DNA of 41,388 nucleotides, taken from positions 1 through 41,388 of the forward strand of contig DYDG01000012.1 in the NCBI GenBank assembly GCA_020717845.1. Direction: 5' to 3'. Numbering within the stretch: the first letter of the stretch is position 1; each line of letters starts with the position of its first letter. A program made the translations under genes and the position numbers. This document shows positions 3,975 to 40,834 of the stretch, in pieces. The notes under the pieces are model-generated. The model saw only the letters and a program-made list of their open reading frames with translations, was not told the origin of the DNA and made no database searches. The stretch comes from Marinifilum sp. Lineage in GTDB: Bacteria; UBA9089; CG2-30-40-21.

Positions 3975-4045
3975 GTATCCTCCGAGACTAACAGTTTAAC
4001 AGCCTGCATAGGCTATCTAACATAGACGAGCTATAGATAGAAATA

Positions 4046-4175
4046 GGTAAGTGGTGATCGGTGATCGGTGATCGGTGATCGGTGATCGGTGATCGGTGAT
4101 CGGTGATCGGTAATCAGATAATATAGGATACCGCTTTCCCAATCACTGATCACTGATCACCGATTACCACTTACC
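4046..4175. repeat. GGTGATC tandem/inverted repeat element between mreC and mreD
   Basis: The left arm holds eight perfect head-to-tail copies of the heptamer GGTGATC (4053-4108) plus one GGTAATC. The right arm holds the complementary units (CACTGATCACTGATCACC). The outer 16 bases, GGTAAGTGGTGATCGG and CCGATTACCACTTACC, pair with one mismatch, so the whole element can fold as a long hairpin. It contains the mreC stop codon (4171-4173). Related elements are at 35269-35341 and, partially, at about 43-94. All share GGATACCG or GATTACC modules. Confidence 0.85.
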
Positions 4176-5109
4176 TTTCCCCACCATCAGCTGTGATTGT
4201 CCCTACTGTTGCTGTTGCTATTTCTGGGATAATGATGGTTGCAGGCTGATTTTTTATCTTCACAGCCTTTTTCGGAAATACAGTAGCATTTTTATTAATA
4301 ATAACCATAACCTCTTCCAGCTTTGAAAACTTGACAAATGGTAAAACAGTCACATCCCGGAACAATCCCCTCTCTTTACTGCCGACATTAACCACAAACC
4401 CTATAAACAACCCATTAGGAAAGATGTCTCCATCACCTGAGGTAATGATGGTATCCTTTTTTTTCACATCAGCATCATAAGGAAGGTATTTAAGATTGCA
4501 ATACCGATGATTATCGCCCTCTATAATTCCTTTATATTGGGTTCGTAATACCTCGCCGCCAATCATACTATTCTGGTCATAAAGCAAGAGTATTGATGAT
4601 GAGTTAGTATTTACATCCAATACCCTGCCGACAAGCCCTTCCCTTCCATTCTGATAAGCGACTACAGGGGCAAGGCGATAGATGCCATCCTTTTTCCCTT
4701 TATCAATCATGATAGTATTTTCCCAATTGCTCGGGTCATAGGATATAACACGAGCGACAATACTTTCATAAGGAAGCTGCTCTTTGTAATTCAATAAACT
4801 TTTTAATCGTTGATTTTCATGGAGGGCTTCATGGTATCTTTGCTTTTCTGCATTAATTGAGCGTATAGCATTTCTCAGTCGTTTATTTTCTAATTTTACA
4901 TCCCTGAGTTCTTGAATGCTAAGAAAAAAATCTCTTGCAGAAAATTTTACCTGACTTGCAAACATCTGAAATGGAAGCAAGACATTAGCAATACCATTTT
5001 TCAAGCAATTGACAGAAAAAGAGGTATGGGTAATCATCAACGCAATAGAAATGAACAACAAAAGAATGATTATATTTTCTCTCCCATGTTTCCAAAAGAA
5101 CCTGACCAA
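4171..5109 (-). CDS. MreC, rod-shape-determining periplasmic protein
   Basis: This bitopic protein (312 aa) has a short basic cytoplasmic N-terminus and one membrane helix ([16 protein letters not shown]). A periplasmic coiled coil follows ([17 protein letters not shown]...), and then the two MreC beta domains with the family segments [15 protein letters not shown] and [18 protein letters not shown]. It scaffolds PBP2 and the wall synthases. The start used overlaps the 3' end of mreB by 40 bp. No alternative start near the membrane helix is better, so the overlap is probably real. The C-terminal 30 residues (alanine/threonine/valine-rich) run into the GGTGATC repeat element, which supplies the stop codon. 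Confidence 0.93.
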
Positions 5110-7724: not shown

Positions 7725-7770
7725 GTCTCATTGAACTCAAAACTTACACAAGATGATGGATTGCTTGCTA

Positions 7771-7930
7771 TACCTCGAGCGGTCATAGATTGTGAATTTT
7801 TTCGGTGAGCAATGGGCATTGTTAGCAAGGCGTGAAGGTGAGTAATAGCCTATGCTATTTCGAACCTGAGCAACGCAGCTATCGATGTTCAGAGCCAGCG
7901 AAAAATCACAATTTGTGGCCGCTCGAGGTA
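7771..7930. mobile_element. 160-bp MITE-like element nested in the IS relic
   Basis: The ends are long imperfect inverted repeats: TACCTCGAGCGG(TCATAGATTGTGA...) on the left, and (...TCACAATTTGTGG)CCGCTCGAGGTA on the right, about 30 bp each. The flanks read TATA on both sides (GCTATACC and GGTATATA), consistent with a short AT target duplication. It has no open reading frame of its own. It lies between the dead transposase and cas3, and its right end supplies a GAGG followed seven bases later by an ATG. Confidence 0.7.
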
Positions 7931-7983
7931 TATATATGACGTTTTTGAAAGGTAATGGTCAGACGAGGTTTTGCGTAAGTCCT

Positions 7984-10620
7984 ATGAATAATATTTTCAA
8001 GTATTGGGGTAAAGTAAAACAAGATGAAAAAGACAGATGGAATTGCCATTTGCTACCGTATCACTGTCTTGATGTGGCAGCAGTAGGTGAGGTGTGGTTG
8101 GAACAAGATAAGGCACTACGTGAGCGTATTGCCTGTTCAATTAGAATAGATAAAGATGGCAGGCAACTTGACAATATTATTGGCTTTTTTCTTGCTCTTC
8201 ATGACCTCGGGAAATTTGACATACGGTTTCAGTCCAAGGTAACTGAAGTGAGCAATCTTGTTTGGCATGATCTGAACCAGAACGACTTATTTTTAACCAC
8301 AAGCCATATTACCGAGTATAACCACGGCAAGGCAGGGTACGATATTTTCGTCAAATTCTATACTCAGTTTCTCGACTTAGAATCTCAGGATGAAGATATT
8401 CTTGATAAATGGAAGCCGTGGATCTCAGCGGTTACAGGGCACCATGGAATCATACCCAGTCAGGCGAATTGGCATAAACCCAGCTCTGAGCAAAGCATAA
8501 TCGAGCACGACCATCAGGCACGAATGGAATGGTTCAAGGACTTGAGAATTCTCTTTTGGGGTCATAACGAAAGCATTCCTTTAATCCCTGAACTATCTCA
8601 AGAGAGTATCGCATTTATTGCTGGTTTCTGCTCGGTTGCAGACTGGATAGCCTCTAATGATTTGTTTGTCAGGTGGATTGACGATGAAATTTCATTGGAG
8701 CGTTACTTTGAAGAATCAAAAGAGCATTGCCGAAAAACAGGCATCCTTAAAGAAATCGGGGTGGTTGGGTGTCAGCCTTCACGATATGTGGGTATTGCGT
8801 CTCTTCTCTCAAATAAAGACAAACCCCGGCAGGTTCAGACACTCATTGATGATATGTTGCCTGAAACCGGGCTTTTGATTATCGAAGCTCCCACTGGCTC
8901 AGGCAAAACAGAATCTGCTCTGGCAATTGCATGGAAGTTGATTGATAGCGGTCAGGCGGATTCAATTATATTTGCCTTACCTACTCAGGCAACAGCCGAT
9001 GCAATGCTTGAACGACTACAGAATCTTGCACCTGTTTTATTTGAAGGCGGCGATGCCAATTTAGTACTTGCTCATGGCAAAGCGAAATACAATGAAATCT
9101 TTGCTAATCTTAAGGCGGCAGGCAGGCCTGGTGCTGCACAAAAAAGAGATGAAGGTGCTGTCCAGTGTGCACAGTGGATATCTTCAAGCCGCAAGCGTGT
9201 TTTTCTCGGTCAGATTGGAGTTTGCACTATTGATCAGGTGCTGCTTTCTGTTTTGCCTCTACGCCACAATTTTATCAGAAGTTTTGGTGTGATGAAAAGC
9301 GTTCTGATTATTGACGAAGTGCATGCTTACGACCGCTATATGTATGGTTTACTGGAAGAGGTGCTCAAACGGCAGAAATCAACAGGAGGATCTGCTATAC
9401 TTCTTTCGGCAACGCTCCCGGCTGTCCAAAAGCAGGAATTATTCAAAACATGGCATGAAGATAGTGGTGCAATGATAATTGATAATGCCACATATCCACT
9501 CATAAGCAAAATCTCAGTATCCGGTGAAAGTTCAGCCATTTCTCCTGCAACTGATGAAATGCCGCCGGAGCGTGCAATCCATATTGAGCTTGTTATTTCG
9601 GATAAGATGCAGCCCGATGAATCCATTATTACCAGATTACTCGAGGCTGCCAAAAGCGGGGCACTGGTGGCTGTTGTCTGCAACCTTGTTAAGGATGCCC
9701 AGCAAACAGCAAAAACCGCAAAAAAACTCTCTTCAATCATCTCGAATTCAAGTGTTCAGGTTGATATTTTTCATGCCCGATATCGGTTTAAGGATCGTCA
9801 GAAAAAAGAGAAGATTGCAAAAGAAATGTATGGCAAATCAGCCCCCAGAAACAGCGGTAGAATCCTTGTAGCCACGCAGGTTGTAGAACAAAGCCTTGAT
9901 CTTGATTTCGATTGGCTTATTACTCAACTATGTCCTGTGGATTTACTCTTTCAGCGTATGGGTCGTCTGCACCGTCACTATCGTTTAAGACCCACAGGAT
10001 TTGAAAAGCCGATATGCACAGTGCTTATATCCGAAAAAGATGATTTTGGTACACATGAATATATCTACCAGGATACGCGTGTCTTGTGGCGGACGCGGGA
10101 ATTGCTCAAAAAACAAGGCGATGAAATTCGCTTTCCTGCGGCTTATCGGGAATTAATAGAAGCTGTATATGGAAAATCAACATGGGATGATGATGAACCG
10201 GATTCAGTAATTGGGAAAAGCCTTGCGTTTAAGCAAGAACAAGAACTTCTGTGGTATACGGCTCAACAGCGAGCAACCAATGGAATGAACCCCTTTGCTG
10301 ATACTGATCAAAATGCAGCCAGCCTGACCCGCGGCAAAGAAATGAGTCTAACTGTGGTACCAATACAAGCCAAAGCTGCAAAGAAAACCTTATTGGATGG
10401 CGAATGTATAATTGATGTAAATGAATTCCAGCGGGATGAATTGCTGAATATGAATGCTGTTTCTGTCCCGGCTGGATGGAAATGGCTGCCATCGTTTGAA
10501 GACGGATATATCTACCTTCCCATGGAGAATACTTGCGAAGGTTGGGTTTGGAGGCACGGAAAGTATTCATTAAAATATACAAAAGATTTTGGTTTGGAAC
10601 AATTGGAGGAGGAAGAATGA
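7984..10620 (+). CDS. Cas3 helicase-nuclease, type I-E
   Basis: Cas3 is the effector nuclease recruited by Cascade to unwind and degrade target DNA. It has an N-terminal HD nuclease domain with YHCLDVA (about residue 27), LHDLGKFD (about 72) and TGHHG. A superfamily 2 helicase follows: Walker A EAPTGSGKTES (about 301), DEVH box LIIDEVHAYD (about 443), SATLP (about 475) and QRMGRLHRH (about 655). An accessory C-terminal domain ends the protein. Length from this ATG is 878 aa, normal for type I-E. The frame is open to 7885. An alternative ATG at 7936 has a better ribosome-binding site and would add 16 residues encoded by the IS relic. The stop overlaps the cas8e ATG. Confidence 0.96.
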   Translation: MNNIFKYWGKVKQDEKDRWNCHLLPYHCLDVAAVGEVWLEQDKALRERIACSIRIDKDGRQLDNIIGFFLALHDLGKFDIRFQSKVTEVSNLVWHDLNQNDLFLTTSHITEYNHGKAGYDIFVKFYTQFLDLESQDEDILDKWKPWISAVTGHHGIIPSQANWHKPSSEQSIIEHDHQARMEWFKDLRILFWGHNESIPLIPELSQESIAFIAGFCSVADWIASNDLFVRWIDDEISLERYFEESKEHCRKTGILKEIGVVGCQPSRYVGIASLLSNKDKPRQVQTLIDDMLPETGLLIIEAPTGSGKTESALAIAWKLIDSGQADSIIFALPTQATADAMLERLQNLAPVLFEGGDANLVLAHGKAKYNEIFANLKAAGRPGAAQKRDEGAVQCAQWISSSRKRVFLGQIGVCTIDQVLLSVLPLRHNFIRSFGVMKSVLIIDEVHAYDRYMYGLLEEVLKRQKSTGGSAILLSATLPAVQKQELFKTWHEDSGAMIIDNATYPLISKISVSGESSAISPATDEMPPERAIHIELVISDKMQPDESIITRLLEAAKSGALVAVVCNLVKDAQQTAKTAKKLSSIISNSSVQVDIFHARYRFKDRQKKEKIAKEMYGKSAPRNSGRILVATQVVEQSLDLDFDWLITQLCPVDLLFQRMGRLHRHYRLRPTGFEKPICTVLISEKDDFGTHEYIYQDTRVLWRTRELLKKQGDEIRFPAAYRELIEAVYGKSTWDDDEPDSVIGKSLAFKQEQELLWYTAQQRATNGMNPFADTDQNAASLTRGKEMSLTVVPIQAKAAKKTLLDGECIIDVNEFQRDELLNMNAVSVPAGWKWLPSFEDGYIYLPMENTCEGWVWRHGKYSLKYTKDFGLEQLEEEE

Positions 10621-12170
10621 ATCTATTGAAAGACCCTTGGATTCCGGTAAGAAACGGGGCTGACTTCCAACAGATAACTTATAAAGACTTGCTTTGCTTG
10701 GAACAGCCGATGTGCCGGGTGGCACTGTCTCGGGATGATTTGGAACTGGCCTGCATCCAGATGCTTGCCGCGTTGACACAGGTTATATTCATGCCTGCGG
10801 ACAAAAAGGAATTACGCACAAGAATTCAAACCCCGCTTACAGAACAGGAATATGAGACCAGAGTGAAAGAATATGAGGACTGGTTTGATCTGAATCATCC
10901 GAAGTGGCCGTTTATGCAGGTTCTTGAGCCTGGAACCGATGAAACAACCCCGATACAGAAGCTATTTTTAGGTTTGCCGGCAGGAAATAGTCATGCCTTT
11001 TTCAATGAGAGCAATGAATGTGAGAAGGTTTGTCTGCCATGTGCGGCAATAGGTCTTTTTAATTCTTGCACTCATGCCCCGAATATCTCTGGTAAACATA
11101 AAGGTGGGTTGCGGGGAAACGCACCGATATCCACTATGATTTACGATGGGTCGTTGCGAAAGATGATCTGGATGAATGTGCTATCACAAGAAATGGTTGA
11201 TCGAATAATGTTGGGTAATCGTCAGGAAATCCCTGTTTGGGTTGAAAAGATCAAAGGAGCAAAGAAGCAGGAGGATGGAGAGCAGATTCAGGCGACAAAC
11301 ATTGGCATGGCGCGCGGGCTCTTCTGGACACCAATTCTTGTCCGGCTCCTTTTTCATAACGAACCGATTGTTTGTGATTGTTGTGGATTGACCTCTAATG
11401 TAGGAATTAAAGGGTTTCGGCTTGGCAGTGTTTTTATGTTCATAGTAAAAGGTCTTTGGCCGCATCCGTATAGCCCTCGGCAACTGAACCTGCAAAAAGA
11501 GAATAAAAAGGGAAAAGAAATCCCAGAGGAATCTGTTGTGTCCTTCACAACCACTGAACCGGCATGGACGCAATTTTCAGAATTGCTCTTTCACTCAGAA
11601 AAAACTGATAAAAAGGAAGGATATGTCCCGGCTACTGTTATCTCTCAATATCACGACCTTTTCAGTGATAAAACTATGTATCTCCTTATAGGAGGTTATC
11701 GTAATAAACAAGCCTCGATTCTCCAGCGTCGGCATGAACTTTATTCAATACCTGCAGGTTGGAGTGATGATCTTCGTGACAGGATTATTGAAATTATCGA
11801 TATCGGGTTATCGATGAAAGAAATTTTGGTGAATAAAGTTCTGTATCCGGTAGTTAAGGGTGATGAGAAGAAAGGACTGAAAGGTGTTGGGGTTGCTATA
11901 AATACGAAGGCATCAGTTCTCTACTTTTATCTTACTGAATCACACATCCACAATATGCTTCGAGAAACCAGCCTGCGGGAATTTGCTCAGGCTAAAATTG
12001 TTTTTCTTGAAAACATTTCTCAAATTTGCCTTGATATCTTTGAGCGAGTTACTCAAGCCTACATCCATAAGCCCGAACTTATCGGCACAGTGGCTCTGGG
12101 CCGTGTGAAACTTAGGAGGCTTCTAAAAGAACTCAAAAACAAGCATAGTGTTAAAGGAGGTGTTGTATGA
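10617..12170 (+). CDS. Cas8e (Cse1/CasA), large subunit of Cascade
   Basis: This is the type I-E large subunit that reads the PAM and positions Cas3. It has 517 aa from the ATG at 10617, close to the roughly 500 aa of the family. The diagnostic N-terminus MNLLKDPWIPVR is present, as is the cysteine-bearing region CLPCAAIGLFNSCTHAP...CDCCG, which resembles zinc-ligand pairs. The helical C-terminal bundle ends in LRRLLKELKNKH. The start is set by GGAGGAGGAAG and by the ATGA overlap with the cas3 stop. Its end overlaps cse2 by 4 bp, so cas3-cas8e-cse2 are translationally coupled. Confidence 0.94.
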   Translation: MNLLKDPWIPVRNGADFQQITYKDLLCLEQPMCRVALSRDDLELACIQMLAALTQVIFMPADKKELRTRIQTPLTEQEYETRVKEYEDWFDLNHPKWPFMQVLEPGTDETTPIQKLFLGLPAGNSHAFFNESNECEKVCLPCAAIGLFNSCTHAPNISGKHKGGLRGNAPISTMIYDGSLRKMIWMNVLSQEMVDRIMLGNRQEIPVWVEKIKGAKKQEDGEQIQATNIGMARGLFWTPILVRLLFHNEPIVCDCCGLTSNVGIKGFRLGSVFMFIVKGLWPHPYSPRQLNLQKENKKGKEIPEESVVSFTTTEPAWTQFSELLFHSEKTDKKEGYVPATVISQYHDLFSDKTMYLLIGGYRNKQASILQRRHELYSIPAGWSDDLRDRIIEIIDIGLSMKEILVNKVLYPVVKGDEKKGLKGVGVAINTKASVLYFYLTESHIHNMLRETSLREFAQAKIVFLENISQICLDIFERVTQAYIHKPELIGTVALGRVKLRRLLKELKNKHSVKGGVV

Positions 12171-12667
12171 CACAAAATGAAAAAGGAGGCGGCTTGCCGA
12201 ATTTTGCAGAAGTCAGGAAGCGATATGAAAAATTTTCTCCGGGGAACAAGGCACAGATTGGCAAGAGAATAGGAACGCCGGAAGACCTGGCGATGATCCC
12301 GGCATTCTATAAGCTCTTTCCTGGTATTCAGCCGTCTGAATGGCACTACCGAGTAGCTTTTCTTGTTCCGTTTATTCGCTATTCAGATGTCGGGCCTACT
12401 TTGGGTGAATACATAGGCGAGCAAGAGCGATTGAAGAAGGTTGGCGGTCTTGAAAAAAGGGTCTTACAGGTTGCTCGGGCGAGCTCACCGCAGGATATGG
12501 TTTATCTTCGCAGGCTTTTAATGCGATTTGATGAACCAGCGGTTAATTGGGTTAAATCAGGGTTGGCAAAACTCTTTTCTGTAAATGAAGAGAAAAATGC
12601 TGAGGGGAAAAAGAGGTTTGTTGAACAATACTTTATATCCCGTTACAAGGAAAAGGAGGAAAAATAA
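12167..12667 (+). CDS. Cse2 (CasB/Cas11e), small subunit of Cascade
   Basis: This all-helical small subunit (166 aa; the usual range is 150-200) forms the belly dimer of Cascade and stabilises the displaced DNA strand. The sequence is basic and helix-rich (AEVRKRYEKFSPGNKAQIGKR...) and ends in a lysine/glutamate-rich tail. A conserved pattern in this family, a segment like FLVPFIRYSD followed by LRRLLMRFDE and an aromatic-KxxLAKLF region, is present. It overlaps cas8e by 4 bp and its stop overlaps the cas7e ATG by one base. Assignment rests on length, composition and fixed operon position together. Confidence 0.9.
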   Translation: MTQNEKGGGLPNFAEVRKRYEKFSPGNKAQIGKRIGTPEDLAMIPAFYKLFPGIQPSEWHYRVAFLVPFIRYSDVGPTLGEYIGEQERLKKVGGLEKRVLQVARASSPQDMVYLRRLLMRFDEPAVNWVKSGLAKLFSVNEEKNAEGKKRFVEQYFISRYKEKEEK

Positions 12668-13779
12668 TGTCTGAACAGAAAAATTTCGTTAATTTTCATG
12701 TGCTTATTTCGCATAGTCCGTCATGCCTTAATCGGGATGACCAGAATATGCAGAAACGAGCAGTCTTCGGGGGAGTTGAAAGGATACGGATATCAAGCCA
12801 GAGTTTGAAGAGAGCGATGCGAACCTCTTCATACTATGCAAAGGAATTTGGGTTGCCATCAATAAGATCAAACAAACTTGAAAAATTGGTCGCGAAATTC
12901 ACCGATGCCTTGAAAAATGAATATTCGGTTGACCTTGTCAAGAAAGCTGTCGAATGGATCTCTGGAAAAAGTGGATTTGAGGCAGGTGGCGAAGCAGATT
13001 CTGTCGCTCCGTGGGCGATTGCTGAAGTCGCCATGTTTTGCGATAGAATTAAAGAGGCTGAAACTGCCGGTATAGACCAGGACAAACTTAAGAAACAGAT
13101 TGAAAAAGATGCCTCGCCATTTCGGAAGAACTTTGAGCAAGCCATAGATATAGCACTCTCTGGTCGAATGGCAACATTTGGCCTTATGAATGCGATTCCA
13201 GTTGACGGCTCGCTCGCTGTTGCTCATGCTATCACTACTCATGCCGCTCAGGCTGATACCGACTGGTTCACCGCGGTTGACGACCTGGTGCAGGAATCAG
13301 GCGAAGTAGGTGCCGGTCATCTTGATACGCAGGAATTCTCCTCTGGCGTATTTTATCGTTATGCCAGCCTTAACATTGCTCAGTTGCAAAAAAATCTTGG
13401 CGGAGCTGATCGTAAAAGGGCACTTGAAATTGCAAAACATGTATTTCACATGCTTTGCACCGTAGTGCCTTCAGCAAAACAACAGTCATTTGCTGCACAT
13501 AATCTTGCTGATTTTGCTATCGTTACCCTTGATGACCAGCCCATATCCCTGGCTAATGCCTTCGAACAACCAGTAGAGAAGGAGAAAAACGGCGGGTATC
13601 TGAAGCCATCTGTCTCTGCACTCGCCAATTACTTCAGCCGTATGAAGAAAGTGTACGGTCTTGATGGATCGGCATCTGGAACACCAGCAGATATTGGTGT
13701 CACTATCCCCAGTGATTTGACTATGCTGACTTCGTTTCCAGCGATTGAAACATGGATTGCCAATGATGGCAGCAGATAA
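12667..13779 (+). CDS. Cas7e (Cse4/CasC), Cascade backbone subunit
   Basis: This RRM-fold protein (370 aa) polymerises as six copies along the crRNA. The family signatures are evident: VNFHVLISHSPSCLNRDD near the N-terminus, RAVFGGVERIRISSQSLKRA, ALSGRMATFGLMNAIPVDG, and the late VVPSAKQQSFAAHNLADF segment. Length and motifs match E. coli CasC. A GGAAAAGGAGG ribosome-binding site precedes the ATG. Twelve bases separate it from cas5e. Confidence 0.95.
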   Translation: MSEQKNFVNFHVLISHSPSCLNRDDQNMQKRAVFGGVERIRISSQSLKRAMRTSSYYAKEFGLPSIRSNKLEKLVAKFTDALKNEYSVDLVKKAVEWISGKSGFEAGGEADSVAPWAIAEVAMFCDRIKEAETAGIDQDKLKKQIEKDASPFRKNFEQAIDIALSGRMATFGLMNAIPVDGSLAVAHAITTHAAQADTDWFTAVDDLVQESGEVGAGHLDTQEFSSGVFYRYASLNIAQLQKNLGGADRKRALEIAKHVFHMLCTVVPSAKQQSFAAHNLADFAIVTLDDQPISLANAFEQPVEKEKNGGYLKPSVSALANYFSRMKKVYGLDGSASGTPADIGVTIPSDLTMLTSFPAIETWIANDGSR

Positions 13780-13791
13780 GGAGGAAACTAT

Positions 13792-14481
13792 ATGCCTCAA
13801 TTTCTTATTATAAAACTTGACGGTGTAATGCAAGGATGGGGTGGGCATACTTACGAAGACTGGCGGCCTACTGAGCTTTTTCCTACACGTAGCGGATTAT
13901 TGGGTCTACTTGGAGCTTGCCTTGGTATTGACAGGCAGGATATAGAAAGGCTTAATGCTCTTGCTGTAAGCGTCTGTTTTACTATTCGGGCAGATTGCCG
14001 GGCGGATGATACCGGCAAACCCATTGCATCCTTAAGGCTCTGTGATTATCACACTATTGAGCATGCTCGAAAGGTTGATGGTTCAGAAAACAAGAATCCA
14101 GTTCAGTCTTACCGCTGGTATCTTTTCGACACACTGTTTACAGTAGCGATAGAAGCCACCATAGATGCGAAGGTAACATTGGACGAGATTGCAGAAGCCT
14201 TGAAAAAACCGGTCTATACGCCGTTTCTTGGCAGACGAAGTTGTCCTATATCTTGTCCATTATTGGAACCGGGTTTATCTGAACCATTTGAAGCGGTAAA
14301 TGCCAAAGAAGCGATTGCTCGAAGCGGTTCAGGGGGTTCAGTTATTTATACCGAGTCGCAGGATTGGATGTCTGAGAGCCGTCTGCGTATGCGAGATGTT
14401 CCTATGTATGGACGAATTAGAACATTTACTACGCGAGAGGTTTATATCCATTCCGAAAAGGAGGTGGACAATGTATCTTAG
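13792..14481 (+). CDS. Cas5e (CasD), crRNA 5'-handle binding subunit
   Basis: This RAMP-fold protein (229 aa) caps the 5' handle of the crRNA in Cascade. The N-terminus (FLIIKLDGVMQGWGGHTYED) and the following RPTELFPTRSGLLGLLGACLGI are the standard Cas5 family beginning, with the glycine-rich helix that follows the first strand. The C-terminal YTPFLGRRSCP and MRDVPMYGR segments also match Cas5e. The start follows AGGAGG. Its last 11 bases overlap cas6e. Confidence 0.94.
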   Translation: MPQFLIIKLDGVMQGWGGHTYEDWRPTELFPTRSGLLGLLGACLGIDRQDIERLNALAVSVCFTIRADCRADDTGKPIASLRLCDYHTIEHARKVDGSENKNPVQSYRWYLFDTLFTVAIEATIDAKVTLDEIAEALKKPVYTPFLGRRSCPISCPLLEPGLSEPFEAVNAKEAIARSGSGGSVIYTESQDWMSESRLRMRDVPMYGRIRTFTTREVYIHSEKEVDNVS

Positions 14482-15127
14482 TAAAATTGTGCTTTCCTGG
14501 CCCGCTTGCCGAAATCCGTATCAATGGCATCGGACAATATGGCAGTTGTTTCCCAATCATCAGGAAGCAGAACGGAGCTTTCTCTTTTCCTGTATTGACC
14601 ACCGGCCCGGCAAAAATATTTCCGCATTGCTTTTTTCGATAGAAAAACCGGAGAGAATACAATCAAAGGAGGTAACGCTATCTGAAGAACCGAAATCACT
14701 GGCTGGTTTGTCATTCAAGCCGGGACAGATGTTAGGCTTCCGCTTAACGGCTAATCCGACAAAAGTCATCACCGAGCAGACAGATGAAATACACATGTCC
14801 CCCACAGGCGCGGGGATGAATCAACGCAAGATTCGTGTTCCGTTGATTAAAAGAGAACAACAAGAGGATTGGCTGAAGCGGAAACTTGATGGACTCGCAG
14901 TTGTTGAAAATGTAATGCCGCAAAATGAGCCTCCGCTTTACTTCAACCGAAAAAATAGAGGCGGTAAGATTGTCCCTGTTACCTTTGAAGGAATTCTCAG
15001 AGTAGTTAATCCTGAAAAGTTTAAAGAACAAATCTACGAAAAATATAACGAAAAAGGTGAATATATTGCTGGCATTGGTCCTGCTAAAGCATTTGGCTGT
15101 GGGCTGATGATGGTGAAAAGGATATGA
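14471..15127 (+). CDS. Cas6e (Cse3/CasE), CRISPR RNA endoribonuclease
   Basis: Cas6e cleaves pre-crRNA at the 3' base of the repeat hairpin and stays bound to it in Cascade. Length is 218 aa. The N-terminus MYLSKIVLSWPACRNPYQWH matches the family. Catalytic histidine H20 follows Tyr-Gln-Trp, aligning with Tyr23/His26 of the E. coli enzyme from memory. The C-terminal glycine-rich loop GIGPAKAFGCGLMMV is intact. The start at 14471 has AAAAGGAGG upstream. Unusually, 14795-14823 is a near-copy of this locus's CRISPR repeat, encoding HMSPTGAGMNQ. This replaces, with a few added residues, the loop that in E. coli lies just before RCRVPLIK. Confidence 0.94.
   Translation: MYLSKIVLSWPACRNPYQWHRTIWQLFPNHQEAERSFLFSCIDHRPGKNISALLFSIEKPERIQSKEVTLSEEPKSLAGLSFKPGQMLGFRLTANPTKVITEQTDEIHMSPTGAGMNQRKIRVPLIKREQQEDWLKRKLDGLAVVENVMPQNEPPLYFNRKNRGGKIVPVTFEGILRVVNPEKFKEQIYEKYNEKGEYIAGIGPAKAFGCGLMMVKRI
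14795..14823 (+). repeat. CRISPR-repeat-like sequence embedded in cas6e
   Basis: Aligned with the 29-nt array repeat on the same strand, this stretch matches at 25 of 29 positions. Within the core GTCCCCCACAGGCGCGGGGA, only two bases differ (T to C at the third position and in the loop-closing pair). The hairpin arms CCCC and GGGG and the AGGC loop are kept, and the 3' handle reads ATGAATCA instead of ATGAACCG. One A-C mismatch weakens the stem. Confidence 0.9.
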
Positions 15128-15155: not shown

Positions 15156-15987
15156 ATGGAAACTAAACTGGCAGTATTTAAGGGCAAGGAAATACGGCGG
15201 ACACTTCATAATAACGAGTGGTGGTTTTCTGTTGTAGATGTATGTGAGGTGCTCACTGAAAGTCCTGATCCAGGAGCATATTGGCGAAAAATGAAACAAA
15301 GACTCAAAGAAGAGGGAAGTGAACCCGTGACATTTTGTCACGGGTTGAAATTGATTGCCCCCGATGGAAAGATGAGAGAGACTGATTGTGCCAATACCGA
15401 AGGGATTTTCCGAATCATCCAGTCTGTTCCCTCTCCCAAAGCCGAACCTTTCAAACGCTGGCTGGCAAAGGTTGGATATGAGAGGGTCCAGGAGATAGAA
15501 GACCCAGAACTTGCCACAAAGAGGACAAGGGCTTTATACAAGGCAAAGGGATACTCTGATGACTGGATTGAGAAGAGGATACGCGGTATTGCCATTAGAG
15601 AGGAGCTAACGGATGAATGGAAAAAGCGAGAGATAACACAGCAGAAGGAGTATGAGATACTTACTGCTGAAATAGCCAGAGCCGCTTTTGGAATAACACC
15701 GAGTCAGCATAAGAGCATAAAGGGGCTGAATCGGGAGAATCTGAGAGACCATATGACCGATCTTGAATTAATATTCTCAATGCTCGGTGAAGCTGCTACT
15801 ACAGAGATAACCAGGGTCGATGATGCCAAAGGATTTCACGAAAACAAGACAGCAGCCCGAAAAGGTGGAGAGGTTGCAGGAAAAGCACGAAAGGATCTTG
15901 AAGAAAAAACCGGCAAACGGGTCATTTCTAAAGAAAACTACCTGATAATCTCTCAGAGTCAGAAGAAATTGGAGAAAAGGAGGGAAA

Positions 15988-15995
<8 letters not shown>
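15156..15995 (+). CDS. Bro-N domain (phage antirepressor/DinD-like) protein inside the cas operon
   Basis: This 279-aa protein has an N-terminal Bro-N DNA-binding domain (about residues 5-110; KEIRRTLHNNEWWFSVVDVCEVL, EGIFRIIQSVPSPKAEPFKRWLAKVG). A conserved C-terminal region follows (GYSDDWIEKRIRGIAIREELT, HKSIKGLNRENLRDHMTDLE, TARKGGEVAGKARKDLE). This architecture is widespread in bacteria as a BRO-family or DNA-damage-inducible D-like protein; its molecular role is poorly defined. It follows cas6e by 28 bp with its own AAAGGAGG, and its last 8 bases overlap the cas1 start. It is therefore part of the operon rather than a neighbour. It is not a recognised type I-E component. A transcriptional regulator or damage-response link is inference. 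Confidence 0.88.
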
Positions 15996-17221
<1,226 letters not shown>

Positions 17222-17225
17222 AAAT

Positions 17226-17756
17226 ATGGTTAATATTGAAAGCATCCTATTGCCCAGCAGCCGATACCGTGCATTCCTTGATATTGAAACTACTGGTTTG
17301 AGCCCAACGAGGGGGGATTTGACCGTAATTGGAATATGTTTGGAGAATGATGCTCATCAAGAGTTTATTCAATTGCTTGAAAACGATATATCCTCGGCAA
17401 TGCTGTTTAAGATAATTGAAAATGTGGATATACTTTATACCTATAACGGCACAAGATTTGATTTACCCTATATCAAGGCAAAATTAGGCGTAGATTTGAC
17501 TGAACATTGCCTTCATATAGATTTGATGTATGAATGCTGGCGAAAAAGGCTATATGGCGGACTTAAAAGGGTGGAAAAACAACTTGGGATTAAAAGAAAA
17601 TTGATAGAAATAGATGGAAGAATGGCAGTTAAATTATGGTATGAGTATAAATTTTATGGAAATAAACAGGCTCTGGTTACCTTGCTGGAATATAATAAGG
17701 AAGATGTGCTGAATCTAATGTTGATACGAGAAAAATTATGTGTGGATAGGAGATAG
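17226..17756 (+). CDS. Stand-alone DEDDy 3'-5' exonuclease (YprB/RNase_H_2-like) next to cas2
   Basis: This 176-aa ribonuclease-H-fold exonuclease domain has all four acidic residues: FLDIETTGL (Asp19, Glu21), TYNGTRFDLPYI (Asp79) and EYNKEDVLNL (Tyr156, Asp160). The Y-x3-D form makes it DEDDy, distinct from the DEDDh DnaQ domains. It resembles the single-domain YprB-like nucleases (COG3359 as I recall). The start at 17226 follows GAGG at good spacing and lies 4 bp after the cas2 stop. An in-frame ATG at 17211 lacks a site. It is the last gene before the leader. By analogy with Cas2-DnaQ fusions and Cas4, it may trim prespacer ends, which is inference. Confidence 0.85.
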   Translation: MVNIESILLPSSRYRAFLDIETTGLSPTRGDLTVIGICLENDAHQEFIQLLENDISSAMLFKIIENVDILYTYNGTRFDLPYIKAKLGVDLTEHCLHIDLMYECWRKRLYGGLKRVEKQLGIKRKLIEIDGRMAVKLWYEYKFYGNKQALVTLLEYNKEDVLNLMLIREKLCVDRR

Positions 17757-17816: not shown

Positions 17817-20224
17817 ATGTTCCCCACAGGCGTGGGGATGAACCTCGCCCTAATCGTCGTGCCAGTAAAATCCATAAATGTTCCCCACAGGCGTGGGGAT
17901 GAACCGCATACCCCGATACCGCAGTGCTCGGACGTGTGATGTTCCCCACAGGCGTGGGGATGAACCGATTACATCCCGCTGCTCACGTAGGGCGATAGCA
18001 TGTTCCCCACAGGCGTGGGGATGAACCGATATTTTTGTAGGGAAAAGCTGGAAAGCGTGCATGTTCCCCACAGGCGTGGGGATGAACCGCTAATGTTAGT
18101 TGATGTGATTGCTGAGGTCAAATGTTCCCCACAGGCGTGGGGATGAACCGCCCACCAGTGATGTCATTGTTAGCTGCTTCCGATGTTCCCCACAGGCGTG
18201 GGGATGAACCGTTACCGCAAGAAACACGGCAACGATTTCTTGAATGTTCCCCACAGGCGTGGGGATGAACCGTATATTTTCCCCAATAGCGGCATACTCG
18301 GCAGATGTTCCCCACAGGCGTGGGGATGAACCGACGCGGGGGGATGTCGGCGTGTGTCCTTGCCCATGTTCCCCACAGGCGTGGGGATGAACCGGTCACG
18401 GAGCAGGGACGACGGCACAGCTCCCTATGTTCCCCACAGGCGTGGGGATGAACCGCAGGATATTCTGTGATGCCTAACGATACTGAGATGTTCCCCACAG
18501 GCGTGGGGATGAACCGTACTTTCCGTTAACACTGTTAATCCGTTAATTATGTTCCCCACAGGCGTGGGGATGAACCGGGCTAAAACGGATGAGATGGGAT
18601 AAGTTTTGCATGTTCCCCACAGGCGTGGGGATGAACCGCTATACGCTATTGGTCGAACAGTAGCAGGCAAATGTTCCCCACAGGCGTGGGGATGAACCGC
18701 TACGGATTTTAGCATAACTGCGGATTATGCTATGTTCCCCACAGGCGTGGGGATGAACCGGCTGTCTGGGATAGCCAGCATTGGGCGATAATATGTTCCC
18801 CACAGGCGTGGGGATGAACCGTATATCGGTAAGAGCAGGGGATACCACCTCTGATGTTCCCCACAGGCGTGGGGATGAACCGTTGATGAAAGGCTTGCGG
18901 CTCAAAGGGTTACGATGTTCCCCACAGGCGTGGGGATGAACCGATATACAGGCAGATAAGGAGGTTGACACAGCCATGTTCCCCACAGGCGTGGGGATGA
19001 ACCGCTGGATATGTTATTAAAGCTGGTCATATTGTTATGTTCCCCACAGGCGTGGGGATGAACCGGGTGATGGTATTGCACGGATAAGAGAACTTGTATG
19101 TTCCCCACAGGCGTGGGGATGAACCGTTTATTGCCATGACAGGTGCTAAAAACTTTATATGTTCCCCACAGGCGTGGGGATGAACCGCTGGAAAGGACTA
19201 ATTGAGGATACGAGTGCAGATGTTCCCCACAGGCGTGGGGATGAACCGGATTATGGTTATTGCGGTAAATGTGGACAGCAATGTTCCCCACAGGCGTGGG
19301 GATGAACCGTACTCTGCCGATGTCATTCCGGTGGAACTAACATGTTCCCCACAGGCGTGGGGATGAACCGTTGAATTACTCGGTCACTCGTTCGATTGTC
19401 TGATGTTCCCCACAGGCGTGGGGATGAACCGCACTCTGAGGAGAGAGACCAAACATTGACACGATGTTCCCCACAGGCGTGGGGATGAACCGGCAGAGGG
19501 TGTTATTCTCAGGGGTTTTTCGCAATGTTCCCCACAGGCGTGGGGATGAACCGTGATAATGGACGCAAAAATAAACGCTGGGGCAATGTTCCCCACAGGC
19601 GTGGGGATGAACCGGTCAACCATCCTTTTTTTGTGCCTAAATTCTGATGTTCCCCACAGGCGTGGGGATGAACCGACACGCTGTGCCGTCGTCCCCTACT
19701 CCGTGCCATGTTCCCCACAGGCGTGGGGATGAACCGGGATTCTGTCCGACTCCAACGTGCTGTCTATCATGTTCCCCACAGGCGTGGGGATGAACCGAAG
19801 GAGGAAGATCATGGAAAACTGGGCACAAAATGTTCCCCACAGGCGTGGGGATGAACCGATATTGCTTTTAGGGTTACTCTTATATGGTATATGTTCCCCA
19901 CAGGCGTGGGGATGAACCGCAGTTTGAGAGCAAGCACAAAGAGGTTCTAAAATGTTCCCCACAGGCGTGGGGATGAACCGGCAGGTAGGATCAAGGGGTG
20001 TCCCGCTCGTCCATGTTCCCCACAGGCGTGGGGATGAACCGCATCATAGACGACTATGTTGCATTGGTCGAGAATGTTCCCCACAGGCGTGGGGATGAAC
20101 CGAGGGAGACGGATACCCCAGCAAGATAGAGACTATGTTCCCCACAGGCGTGGGGATGAACCGTTCTCTGAGGTATCCCCGCTACCCTCTGGCTTATGTT
20201 CCCCACAGGCGTGGGGATGAACCC
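17817..20224 (+). CRISPR. Type I-E CRISPR array, 40 repeats and 39 spacers
   Basis: The 29-nt repeat begins ATGTTCCCCACAGGCGTGGG and ends with the 8-nt handle ATGAACCG. It folds into a 7-bp hairpin (TCCCCAC/GTGGGGA, loop AGGC). Starts fall exactly at 17817+61n for n=0-39, so every spacer is 32 nt. The first 28 nt are identical in all 40 copies by inspection, with no decay at the distal end. The 29th base is G after 38 repeats, T after the leader-proximal repeat and C after the last. Transcription is left to right from the cas side. I recognise no spacer target. Apparent minus-strand reading frames across the array are artefacts of the repeat. Confidence 0.98.
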
Positions 20225-35268: not shown

Positions 35269-35341
35269 GGTGATCGGTGATCGGTAAATGGTGATCAGGT
35301 AATGCAGGATACCGATCACTGATCACCGATTACCGATTACC
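35269..35341. repeat. GGTGATC-type hairpin element
   Basis: This 73-bp relative of the element at 4046-4175 has GGTGATCGGTGATCGG on the left and CCGATCACTGATCACCGATT on the right around a CAGGATACC centre. It lies between the TonB and DUF2162 genes and can form a strong hairpin in the transcript. Confidence 0.75.
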
Positions 35342-35382
35342 AAAATTCTTGCTTTTTGGGCAAGAATTTTACTGATAAGGGA

Positions 35383-39220: not shown

Positions 39221-40834
39221 ATGCACCTTAATTTCCCACAACGAATGTTCAAGATAGCCAATAAGACCAGATGGCTGATAATGCTAATGGTTGTATTAAT
39301 GGTTGAGCTATTTCCACAGCAGGGGATGTCTCACACCCAGTTATATATCCTCATCAGCTTAACGGCTATCTACAATATTGTGATTAGATTTATTCCATGG
39401 CAAAAGCAGTGGCAGGAGGGTAATGGCTATCGCATATGCTATGCTGAAAGCACATTAGACATAGTATTTATTAGCGGCACAATCTATCTTACTGATGGAC
39501 TTAAGAGTGATTTCTTCTTACTTTACTTTATAGTTATTATATTTGCTGCCATTTATTACAATCCGATACGATGTTTCTTCATAACTACGTGTATAAGTTT
39601 ACTTTATATCTTGATTGGCATCTTAACATCCCCAACATACTCTTGTATACTGCCTGTTTTTCTTGGAAAACTTCCCTTATTATTTGTTATCGCTGGATTT
39701 AGCAGCTATCTAACGCAAGAGATTAAGGCTCAGAGCGAAGAATTGGCTATAGAAAAGGAAAAGTTGCAGGCTCTTCTTGCTACCCTGAAGGTAAACCTAA
39801 AGGAGATTGAGGAAAAGAGCAATGCATTGCGAGAGCTGTATAACCTCTCCTTAAAGATAGGAAGTACTTTAAGTTTAGATGAGCAACTATCTAATATTAT
39901 TGATGTTACGAGAAATTTCCTAAAGGCAGATCTGACCACAATCAGCATGATTGATGAGAAGGGGATAGAGTTAAGGACATGTGTGAGCAAGGGAGTGTTT
40001 TCTGGAGGAATCCTTGCCAGGGACAAAATTAAGATAGAGGATAGCTTATTTGGCAATGTTATTAAAACAGGTGAACTGTTGATTGTTGATGACCTGCATA
40101 AAGCAGGGGAATACTCATCTGGTCAAGAGATGACATCCTTAATTGCGGTGCCCTTAAAGATAGAGGATAATACTATTGGTGTTTTTAGCTGTGCCTATGC
40201 TCAACATAAGAAATTTAGCAAGGATGATATGAATTTTTTAGAGCTTATTAGCTCCCGGGCAGCATTGGCAGTAAATAATGCTAAACTTCACGAAGAGATA
40301 AGAAAATTAGCCATTACCGATGGTCTTACCGGACTTTATAACTACAGGTATTTTCAAGAAAATCTGCGGAATGAGATTGAGAGGTGCAAAAGGCTTAAGT
40401 ATGGAGGATTATCCCTGCTTCTTATGGATATTGATCATTTTAAGCAATTCAATGATCTGTATGGACATCAAAAAGGGGACATGGTTTTAGAAAGGGTAGG
40501 GACTCTTTTGAACATTTATACGAGGAAAACAGATGTAGTCGCTCGCTATGGCGGTGAAGAGTTTGTAGTTATTGCTCCGGGAACACCAAAGGAAAATAGC
40601 CTGTTGCTGGGAGAGAGAATAAGACATGCAATGTCTGAGAAGTTATTCAGTCAGGAAGAAAAAGTGCAAACAGGGATTACCTTTCCAGTAACAATAAGTA
40701 TTGGTGTAGCTACATTTCCAAATGATGCCAGCAACCAGGAAGAGCTGATTAAATGTGCGGATAATGCCCTTTATAGTGCTAAAAGTGCCGGAAGGGATAG
40801 GGTAGTTGGCTGGGGAGTTAAGGCTGAAGGATGA
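39221..40834 (+). CDS. Membrane GAF-GGDEF diguanylate cyclase
   Basis: This 537-aa protein makes cyclic di-GMP. An N-terminal part with about five to six membrane helices (residues 15-170) is followed by a coiled coil (AQSEELAIEKEKLQALLATLKVNLKEIEEK) and a GAF sensor domain (about 215-360). The GGDEF domain is at about 365-530: DGLTGLYNYRYFQ, LLLMDIDHFKQFNDLYGHQKGD and the active-site RYGGEEF. An RxxD inhibitory site (RKTD, five residues before GGEEF) is present, so product feedback is expected. GGAGG lies 11 nt before the ATG. There are no partner genes nearby; a 10-bp-arm hairpin overlaps its stop codon. Confidence 0.94.
   Translation: MHLNFPQRMFKIANKTRWLIMLMVVLMVELFPQQGMSHTQLYILISLTAIYNIVIRFIPWQKQWQEGNGYRICYAESTLDIVFISGTIYLTDGLKSDFFLLYFIVIIFAAIYYNPIRCFFITTCISLLYILIGILTSPTYSCILPVFLGKLPLLFVIAGFSSYLTQEIKAQSEELAIEKEKLQALLATLKVNLKEIEEKSNALRELYNLSLKIGSTLSLDEQLSNIIDVTRNFLKADLTTISMIDEKGIELRTCVSKGVFSGGILARDKIKIEDSLFGNVIKTGELLIVDDLHKAGEYSSGQEMTSLIAVPLKIEDNTIGVFSCAYAQHKKFSKDDMNFLELISSRAALAVNNAKLHEEIRKLAITDGLTGLYNYRYFQENLRNEIERCKRLKYGGLSLLLMDIDHFKQFNDLYGHQKGDMVLERVGTLLNIYTRKTDVVARYGGEEFVVIAPGTPKENSLLLGERIRHAMSEKLFSQEEKVQTGITFPVTISIGVATFPNDASNQEELIKCADNALYSAKSAGRDRVVGWGVKAEG

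Follow-up and report, generated by a model that had tools for sequence, protein, structure and literature searches.

The cas6e gene of the type I-E CRISPR-Cas locus in the 41,388-nt stretch of DNA analysed here (the window) carries within its reading frame a near-copy of the repeat of the downstream array. The best reading of this sequence, to which we assign a probability of about 0.6, is that one repeat unit was captured in frame at a striking site and then decayed. Because two key pairing positions of the repeat are changed, a captured relic is more likely than a working self-control switch. Ectopic CRISPR repeats between genes and in viruses were known before; the one described here lies in frame within the gene for the very enzyme that processes such repeats, in the repeat-contacting loop.

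The type I-E locus in the window is complete; besides its cas genes it has a Bro-N gene, an exonuclease gene of the RNase_H_2 type and an array of 40 repeats. The cas genes are all on the plus strand and follow the I-E order cas3-cas8e-cse2-cas7-cas5-cas6e-cas1-cas2. Profile searches identified cas8e/casA (10611-12170), cas7e (12667-13779), cas5e (13792-14481), cas1e (15988-16911) and cas2e (16892-17221). The start of cas3 (7981-10620) is inferred, the ORF opening at 7885, and cse2/casB (12167-12667) has no HMM match and shows 41% identity to the gene at the cse2 position of Methylothermaceae locus L031. The pre-crRNA endoribonuclease gene cas6e (casE/cse3, 14471-15127) matches profile TIGR01907 with 115 bits against a curated cut-off of 45.2; Y17 and H20 are kept, and the catalytic H20 aligns with the E. 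coli His. The array (17817-20224, plus strand) consists of 29-nt repeats with a period of 61 and would be the source type of the captured repeat. Its copies are identical over 28 nt, the last base alone varying, at the two ends of the array. A 32-nt inverted repeat (88%; 7769-7800 and 7901-7932, 100 nt apart) lies directly upstream of the likely cas3 start.

The copy, ATGTCCCCCACAGGCGCGGGGATGAATCA, occupies positions 14795-14823 on the sense strand of cas6e. It shares 25 of its 29 positions with the array repeat, ATGTTCCCCACAGGCGTGGGGATGAACCG; coordinates, strand and score are all as an earlier note on this DNA had given them. The differences (T5C, T17C, C27T and G29A) are all transitions and in this resemble plain mutation. 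The repeat core CCCCACAGGCGTGGGGATGAA was found in the copy with one mismatch and had no match in the shuffled window. By a binomial estimate for both strands of the window, the chance expectation for a match of at least 25/29 is 5.8e-7, and the remaining cas genes of the window do not exceed 17/29. Another match, of 20/29 at position 2223, is probably due to chance (0.07 matches of at least 20/29 are expected with equal base frequencies). Codons 14795-14824 read MSPTGAGMNQ, which is the in-frame translation of the repeat after the four transitions. When this peptide was recoded synonymously with local codon usage, the mean match to the repeat was 20.3, and 25/29 or more was reached in 0.03% of draws. 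Since draws with the peptide held fixed so rarely attain this score, the likeness resides at the DNA level, beyond that of the peptide. The DNA of the copy is thus repeat-derived, or else has been kept repeat-like.

For comparison, cas6e genes were surveyed on plasmids, on 80 genome contigs and in searches around Desulfobacteraceae, Methylothermaceae, Nitrospirae, Chloroflexi and Planctomycetota loci. This yielded 183 other distinct cas6e genes, for 109 of which their own local repeat was found. The best match of these 109 genes to their own repeat averaged 15.6 (sd 1.15) with a maximum of 19/29, and the 25/29 of the window cas6e lies about 8 sd from the survey values. Neither the hairpin motif nor the peptide MSPTGAGMNQ was present in any of the 183. 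Thus, on the homologue comparison that the earlier note had proposed, the insert is unique to the window cas6e and tracks the local repeat; the same peptide beside an unrelated repeat, which that note had named as counter-evidence, was found in none of the 183 genes. Searches of the phylum and beyond found no relative of the window Cas6e above about 47% identity, and a scan of viral contigs for close cas6e relatives found none. In the tree, the protein has a long terminal branch (1.41 changes per column) and no well-supported sister. A chimeric origin of the gene was considered and rejected, as both halves have the same nearest groups. Among 19 genomes of the phylum, cas6e occurs in this genome only, so the I-E locus was probably gained by horizontal transfer.

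Repeat-like sequences were also seen elsewhere in the loci collected. The I-E loci L013 (3476 and 3526), L028 (5750 and 5811), L016 (4876), L017 (4293), L034 (5959) and L020 (5427) each have one or two between cas3 and cas8e, most of them in minus-strand orientation. The two copies in L028 are 61 nt apart and amount to a one-spacer mini-array. The window has no room for an intergenic repeat at this point, since its cas3 and cas8e overlap. In L021 (Methylicorpusculum), a decayed repeat (10638-10666; 21/29 to its own repeat) directly follows the cas6e stop codon.

An AlphaFold model of the window Cas6e (mean pLDDT 91.8) has its best match in E. coli Cas6e (5CD4, TM 0.85-0.93). The insert forms the tip of a modelled beta-hairpin, between strands 97-102 and 119-124, where model confidence is lowest (pLDDT about 71). 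This hairpin, encoded at 14738-14848 on the plus strand (about residues 90-126, with model strands 87-94/97-102 and 119-124), is the groove-loop, the element that in Cas6e reaches into the major groove of the hairpin formed by the repeat (PMC5965380). As placed by the model, repeat DNA encodes part of the very loop predicted to grip repeat RNA. No code is known that would match such a peptide to the repeat RNA, and the overlap is probably coincidental, made likelier by a loop that accepts insertions. The window protein resembles E. coli Cas6e (PDB 5CD4, 4TVX, 4DZD) in fold, in His20 and in the position of the groove-loop, but the E. coli loop is 5 aa shorter, basic and unrelated to the repeat. 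The earlier note had described the E. coli loop as shorter and unrelated, and an unrelated loop was likewise present in every homologue compared.

The copy is flanked by the conserved motifs ANPTK and RVPL. The loop comprises 20 aa in the window protein and usually 15 in the nearest homologues, and its range of 5-26 aa indicates that changes of length are tolerated. Excision of the 30 nt at 14795-14824 leaves QTDEIH/RKIRVPL, flush with QDNPE/RKIRVPL of the Methylothermaceae homologue L031/L097; at the DNA level, the junction reads CAG ACA GAT GAA ATA CAC / CGC AAG ATT CGT in the window versus CAG GAC AAC CCA GAG / CGC AAG ATC CGG in L031/L097. This flush alignment supports in-frame insertion of one repeat unit, and we infer insertion rather than convergent change. 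The loop may equally well have been replaced in part, since L154 and other near homologues have a different 15-aa loop and L031 serves only as a model of the ancestor.

Two of the substitutions fall in the stem of the repeat hairpin. U5 is changed to C, giving C.A at pair 5-22, and U17 is changed to C, giving A.C at pair 10-17, so that five of seven stem pairs are possible. The earlier note's statement that the hairpin arms and loop match holds only in part: the copy retains the AGGC loop and all four C-G pairs, but two of the stem pairs are broken and not one. In the mRNA context, the predicted pair probability is 0 for both 5-22 and 10-17, 0.64-0.96 for the four C-G pairs and 0.40-0.59 for C11-G16; the firmly predicted stem is a 4-bp GC stem only. 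Among array repeats, each of the 60 distinct I-E repeats with correct anchoring has T at position 5 (the sole exception, the L078 repeat, is anchored on the wrong strand). Pair 10-17 is intact in all 61 distinct I-E repeats from 80 loci (A-T in 40, G-C in 19, G-T in 2), and C5.A22 and A10.C17 are absent among about 60 distinct I-E repeats. The copy thus has neither the U5 at the hairpin base nor the seven-pair stem, including 10-17, of a functional I-E repeat. E. coli CasE cuts the Cse3 hairpin strongly, and the single change U5A abolishes cleavage (PMC9095627); a mutation of the stem base abolishes binding of Cas6f to a solitary repeat (PMC10651486). As position 5 is altered here too, cleavage of the copy by the window Cas6e is presumably lost or weak, the published tests concerning other Cas6 enzymes. 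Weak binding at high Cas6e levels, or weak autoregulation, might still occur.

For the capture itself, we envisage that illegitimate recombination or template switching placed an in-frame copy of one local repeat unit (about 28-30 nt) at the groove-loop tip. The protein would have survived since the loop tolerates changes of length and the repeat is open in that frame. The copy would then have been altered at 4 of 29 sites, with two of the changes disrupting the stem, one at the base of the hairpin (5-22) and one close to its loop (10-17), and would probably have lost its status as a Cas6e cleavage site, fully or mostly, by drift or through the cost of cutting its own mRNA. Two of four changes in the stem is the chance level, which makes selected disarming indistinguishable from drift. 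By an eye count, about 3 differences fall at about 22 amino-acid-changing sites and 1 at about 7 silent sites, and all 5 four-fold sites are unchanged; there is no clear constraint on peptide or RNA, and these numbers are too small for a test. The retention of 25/29 positions and of 5/5 four-fold sites could reflect either recent capture or selection. If the copy is not cut, it would demonstrate the ability of array repeats to enter cas genes and serve there as coding sequence, and would offer a clear example of a nuclease's substrate decaying within the gene of the nuclease itself.

Of the origins offered by the earlier note, capture by recombination fits best. Its other suggestion, a landing site for off-array spacer integration, is unlikely. 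No leader-like sequence was found upstream of the copy (19/60; local alignment P 0.85), no second repeat 49-76 nt on either side (best 13/29) and no target-site duplication in 14600-15010. Integration by Cas1-Cas2 duplicates the target and does not copy the repeat. Taken with the lack of a duplication, leader and second repeat, this makes Cas1-Cas2 integration an unlikely route.

The earlier note had suggested negative autoregulation. In this reading, Cas6e would bind its mRNA at the copy and cleave it there, thereby capping its own level. Such a cut would detach the downstream part of the transcript (broN-cas1-cas2-array) from the effector genes on the 5' side, with the mismatches limiting the action to excess free Cas6e, and would constitute a direct autoregulatory circuit for a Cas6. 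The copy is in sense orientation within the gene that encodes the enzyme, its CCCC/GGGG stem is still predicted to form, and control by cleavage has been obtained with Cas6-type hairpins built into mRNAs, self-feedback circuits of CasE among them (PMC9095627). However, both altered stem positions are constant among array repeats, the U5 change kills CasE cleavage in the one pair tested (PMC9095627), mutation at the stem base had the effect on Cas6f noted above (PMC10651486), and none of the 183 homologues has such an element. Cleavage-based control as the earlier note put it is therefore not upheld, and we regard an autoregulatory element as unlikely. A self-limiting circuit, in which the detuned captured repeat senses free Cas6e and the mRNA is cut or masked once uncut pre-crRNA runs out, appears decidedly unlikely; if true, one DNA segment would be both an mRNA sensor and the code for a hairpin-reading loop. 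It is quite unlikely, too, that the copy was kept for reshaping the groove-loop and thereby altering RNA affinity or specificity, its RNA likeness being irrelevant. The insert does sit at the tip of a loop with a role in RNA contact (PMC5965380), and the loop's net charge of -2 is tied lowest of 64 homologues (median +2), but this tip is where the model is least confident, the peptide shows no sign of purifying selection, and nothing indicates a better fit to the window's repeat.

We also considered that the copy might be half of a mini-array or a crRNA-like guide of the CreA or CreR kind, with the downstream cas6e sequence as pseudo-spacer and a Cascade-bound RNA that would start AUGAAUCA. 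Regulators in the form of ectopic repeats close to cas genes are a known class (PMC9458426), and related I-E loci carry them between cas3 and cas8e. Nevertheless, this reading is highly improbable: a second repeat at the proper distance is missing, no plausible pseudo-spacer target was found in the window, where the 8-nt seed occurs only at the copy itself and at 39713 without an extended match, and the bases downstream of the copy encode the conserved RVPL segment. As for an assembly artefact or coincidence, the assembly is in 181 contigs and assemblers can be misled by repeats; yet the reading frame is open through the copy, cas6e is normal on both flanks, and four substitutions relative to every array copy mean that array reads cannot account for it. 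With the chance expectation given above, artefact and coincidence together have very little probability. No spacer matched the window clearly above chance (best 22-23/33, two of these in cas5e), promoter and terminator predictions near the copy were not above those of shuffles, and an Rfam search gave no match.

Shmakov 2023 reportedly describes CRISPR-derived regulatory mini-arrays, stand-alone repeats in type I cas loci that are intergenic, noncoding and guide-producing. The window copy is likewise a stand-alone repeat in a type I cas locus, but it is intragenic and has neither spacer nor second repeat. Other ectopic repeats of type I loci are known as CreA and solitary repeat units and are described as noncoding (PMC9458426, PMC8501985, PMC10651486). 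CreA of CreTA (PMC9458426, PMC8501985) is similar in being an ectopic, partly decayed repeat adjoining cas genes, with decay at Cas6-related positions, but it is noncoding, usually comprises a pair of repeats flanking a pseudo-spacer, and acts as a repressor of a toxin promoter, whereas here a single repeat lies in a protein gene. Solitary repeat units, or Racr anti-CRISPR RNAs (PMC10651486), are also single repeats outside an array that are expected to meet Cas6; unlike the host cas6e coding sequence with its two broken pairs, they are encoded by viruses or plasmids, are noncoding and need their stem. TnpB, which processes its own mRNA into omega-RNA, is another RNA-processing nuclease with a substrate in its own mRNA; its cleavage is shown (PMC10278001), whereas that of the Cas6e copy is doubtful. 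A literature search, mainly of openly accessible papers, found no earlier report of a repeat inside a cas6 reading frame.

The Bro-N domain gene (15156-15995, plus strand) lies between cas6e and cas1. A Bro-N gene adjoins cas1 in at least six further I-E loci, namely L040 (11600), L175 (8679), L170 (8689), L179, L180 and L184. These genes are 53-82% identical and stand alongside two different effector types; the Bro-N gene appears to be a recurring component of the adaptation module. A literature search on a Bro-N gene beside cas1 found nothing. The window cas1 and cas2 are 77-85% identical to those of Nitrospirae and Desulfobacteraceae group loci, and the effector genes 35-59%. L040 has an identical array repeat and an 82% identical Bro-N, but a distant Cas6e. 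These comparisons suggest that the adaptation module and the repeat may move separately from the effector genes. Between cas2 and the array lies the RNase_H_2 (DEDD-type exonuclease) gene (17211-17756), without a homologue among the fetched loci. Outside the locus, GGTGATC/GATCACC heptamer repeats form long inverted repeats at 4045-4184 and 35269-35342, 31 kb apart.
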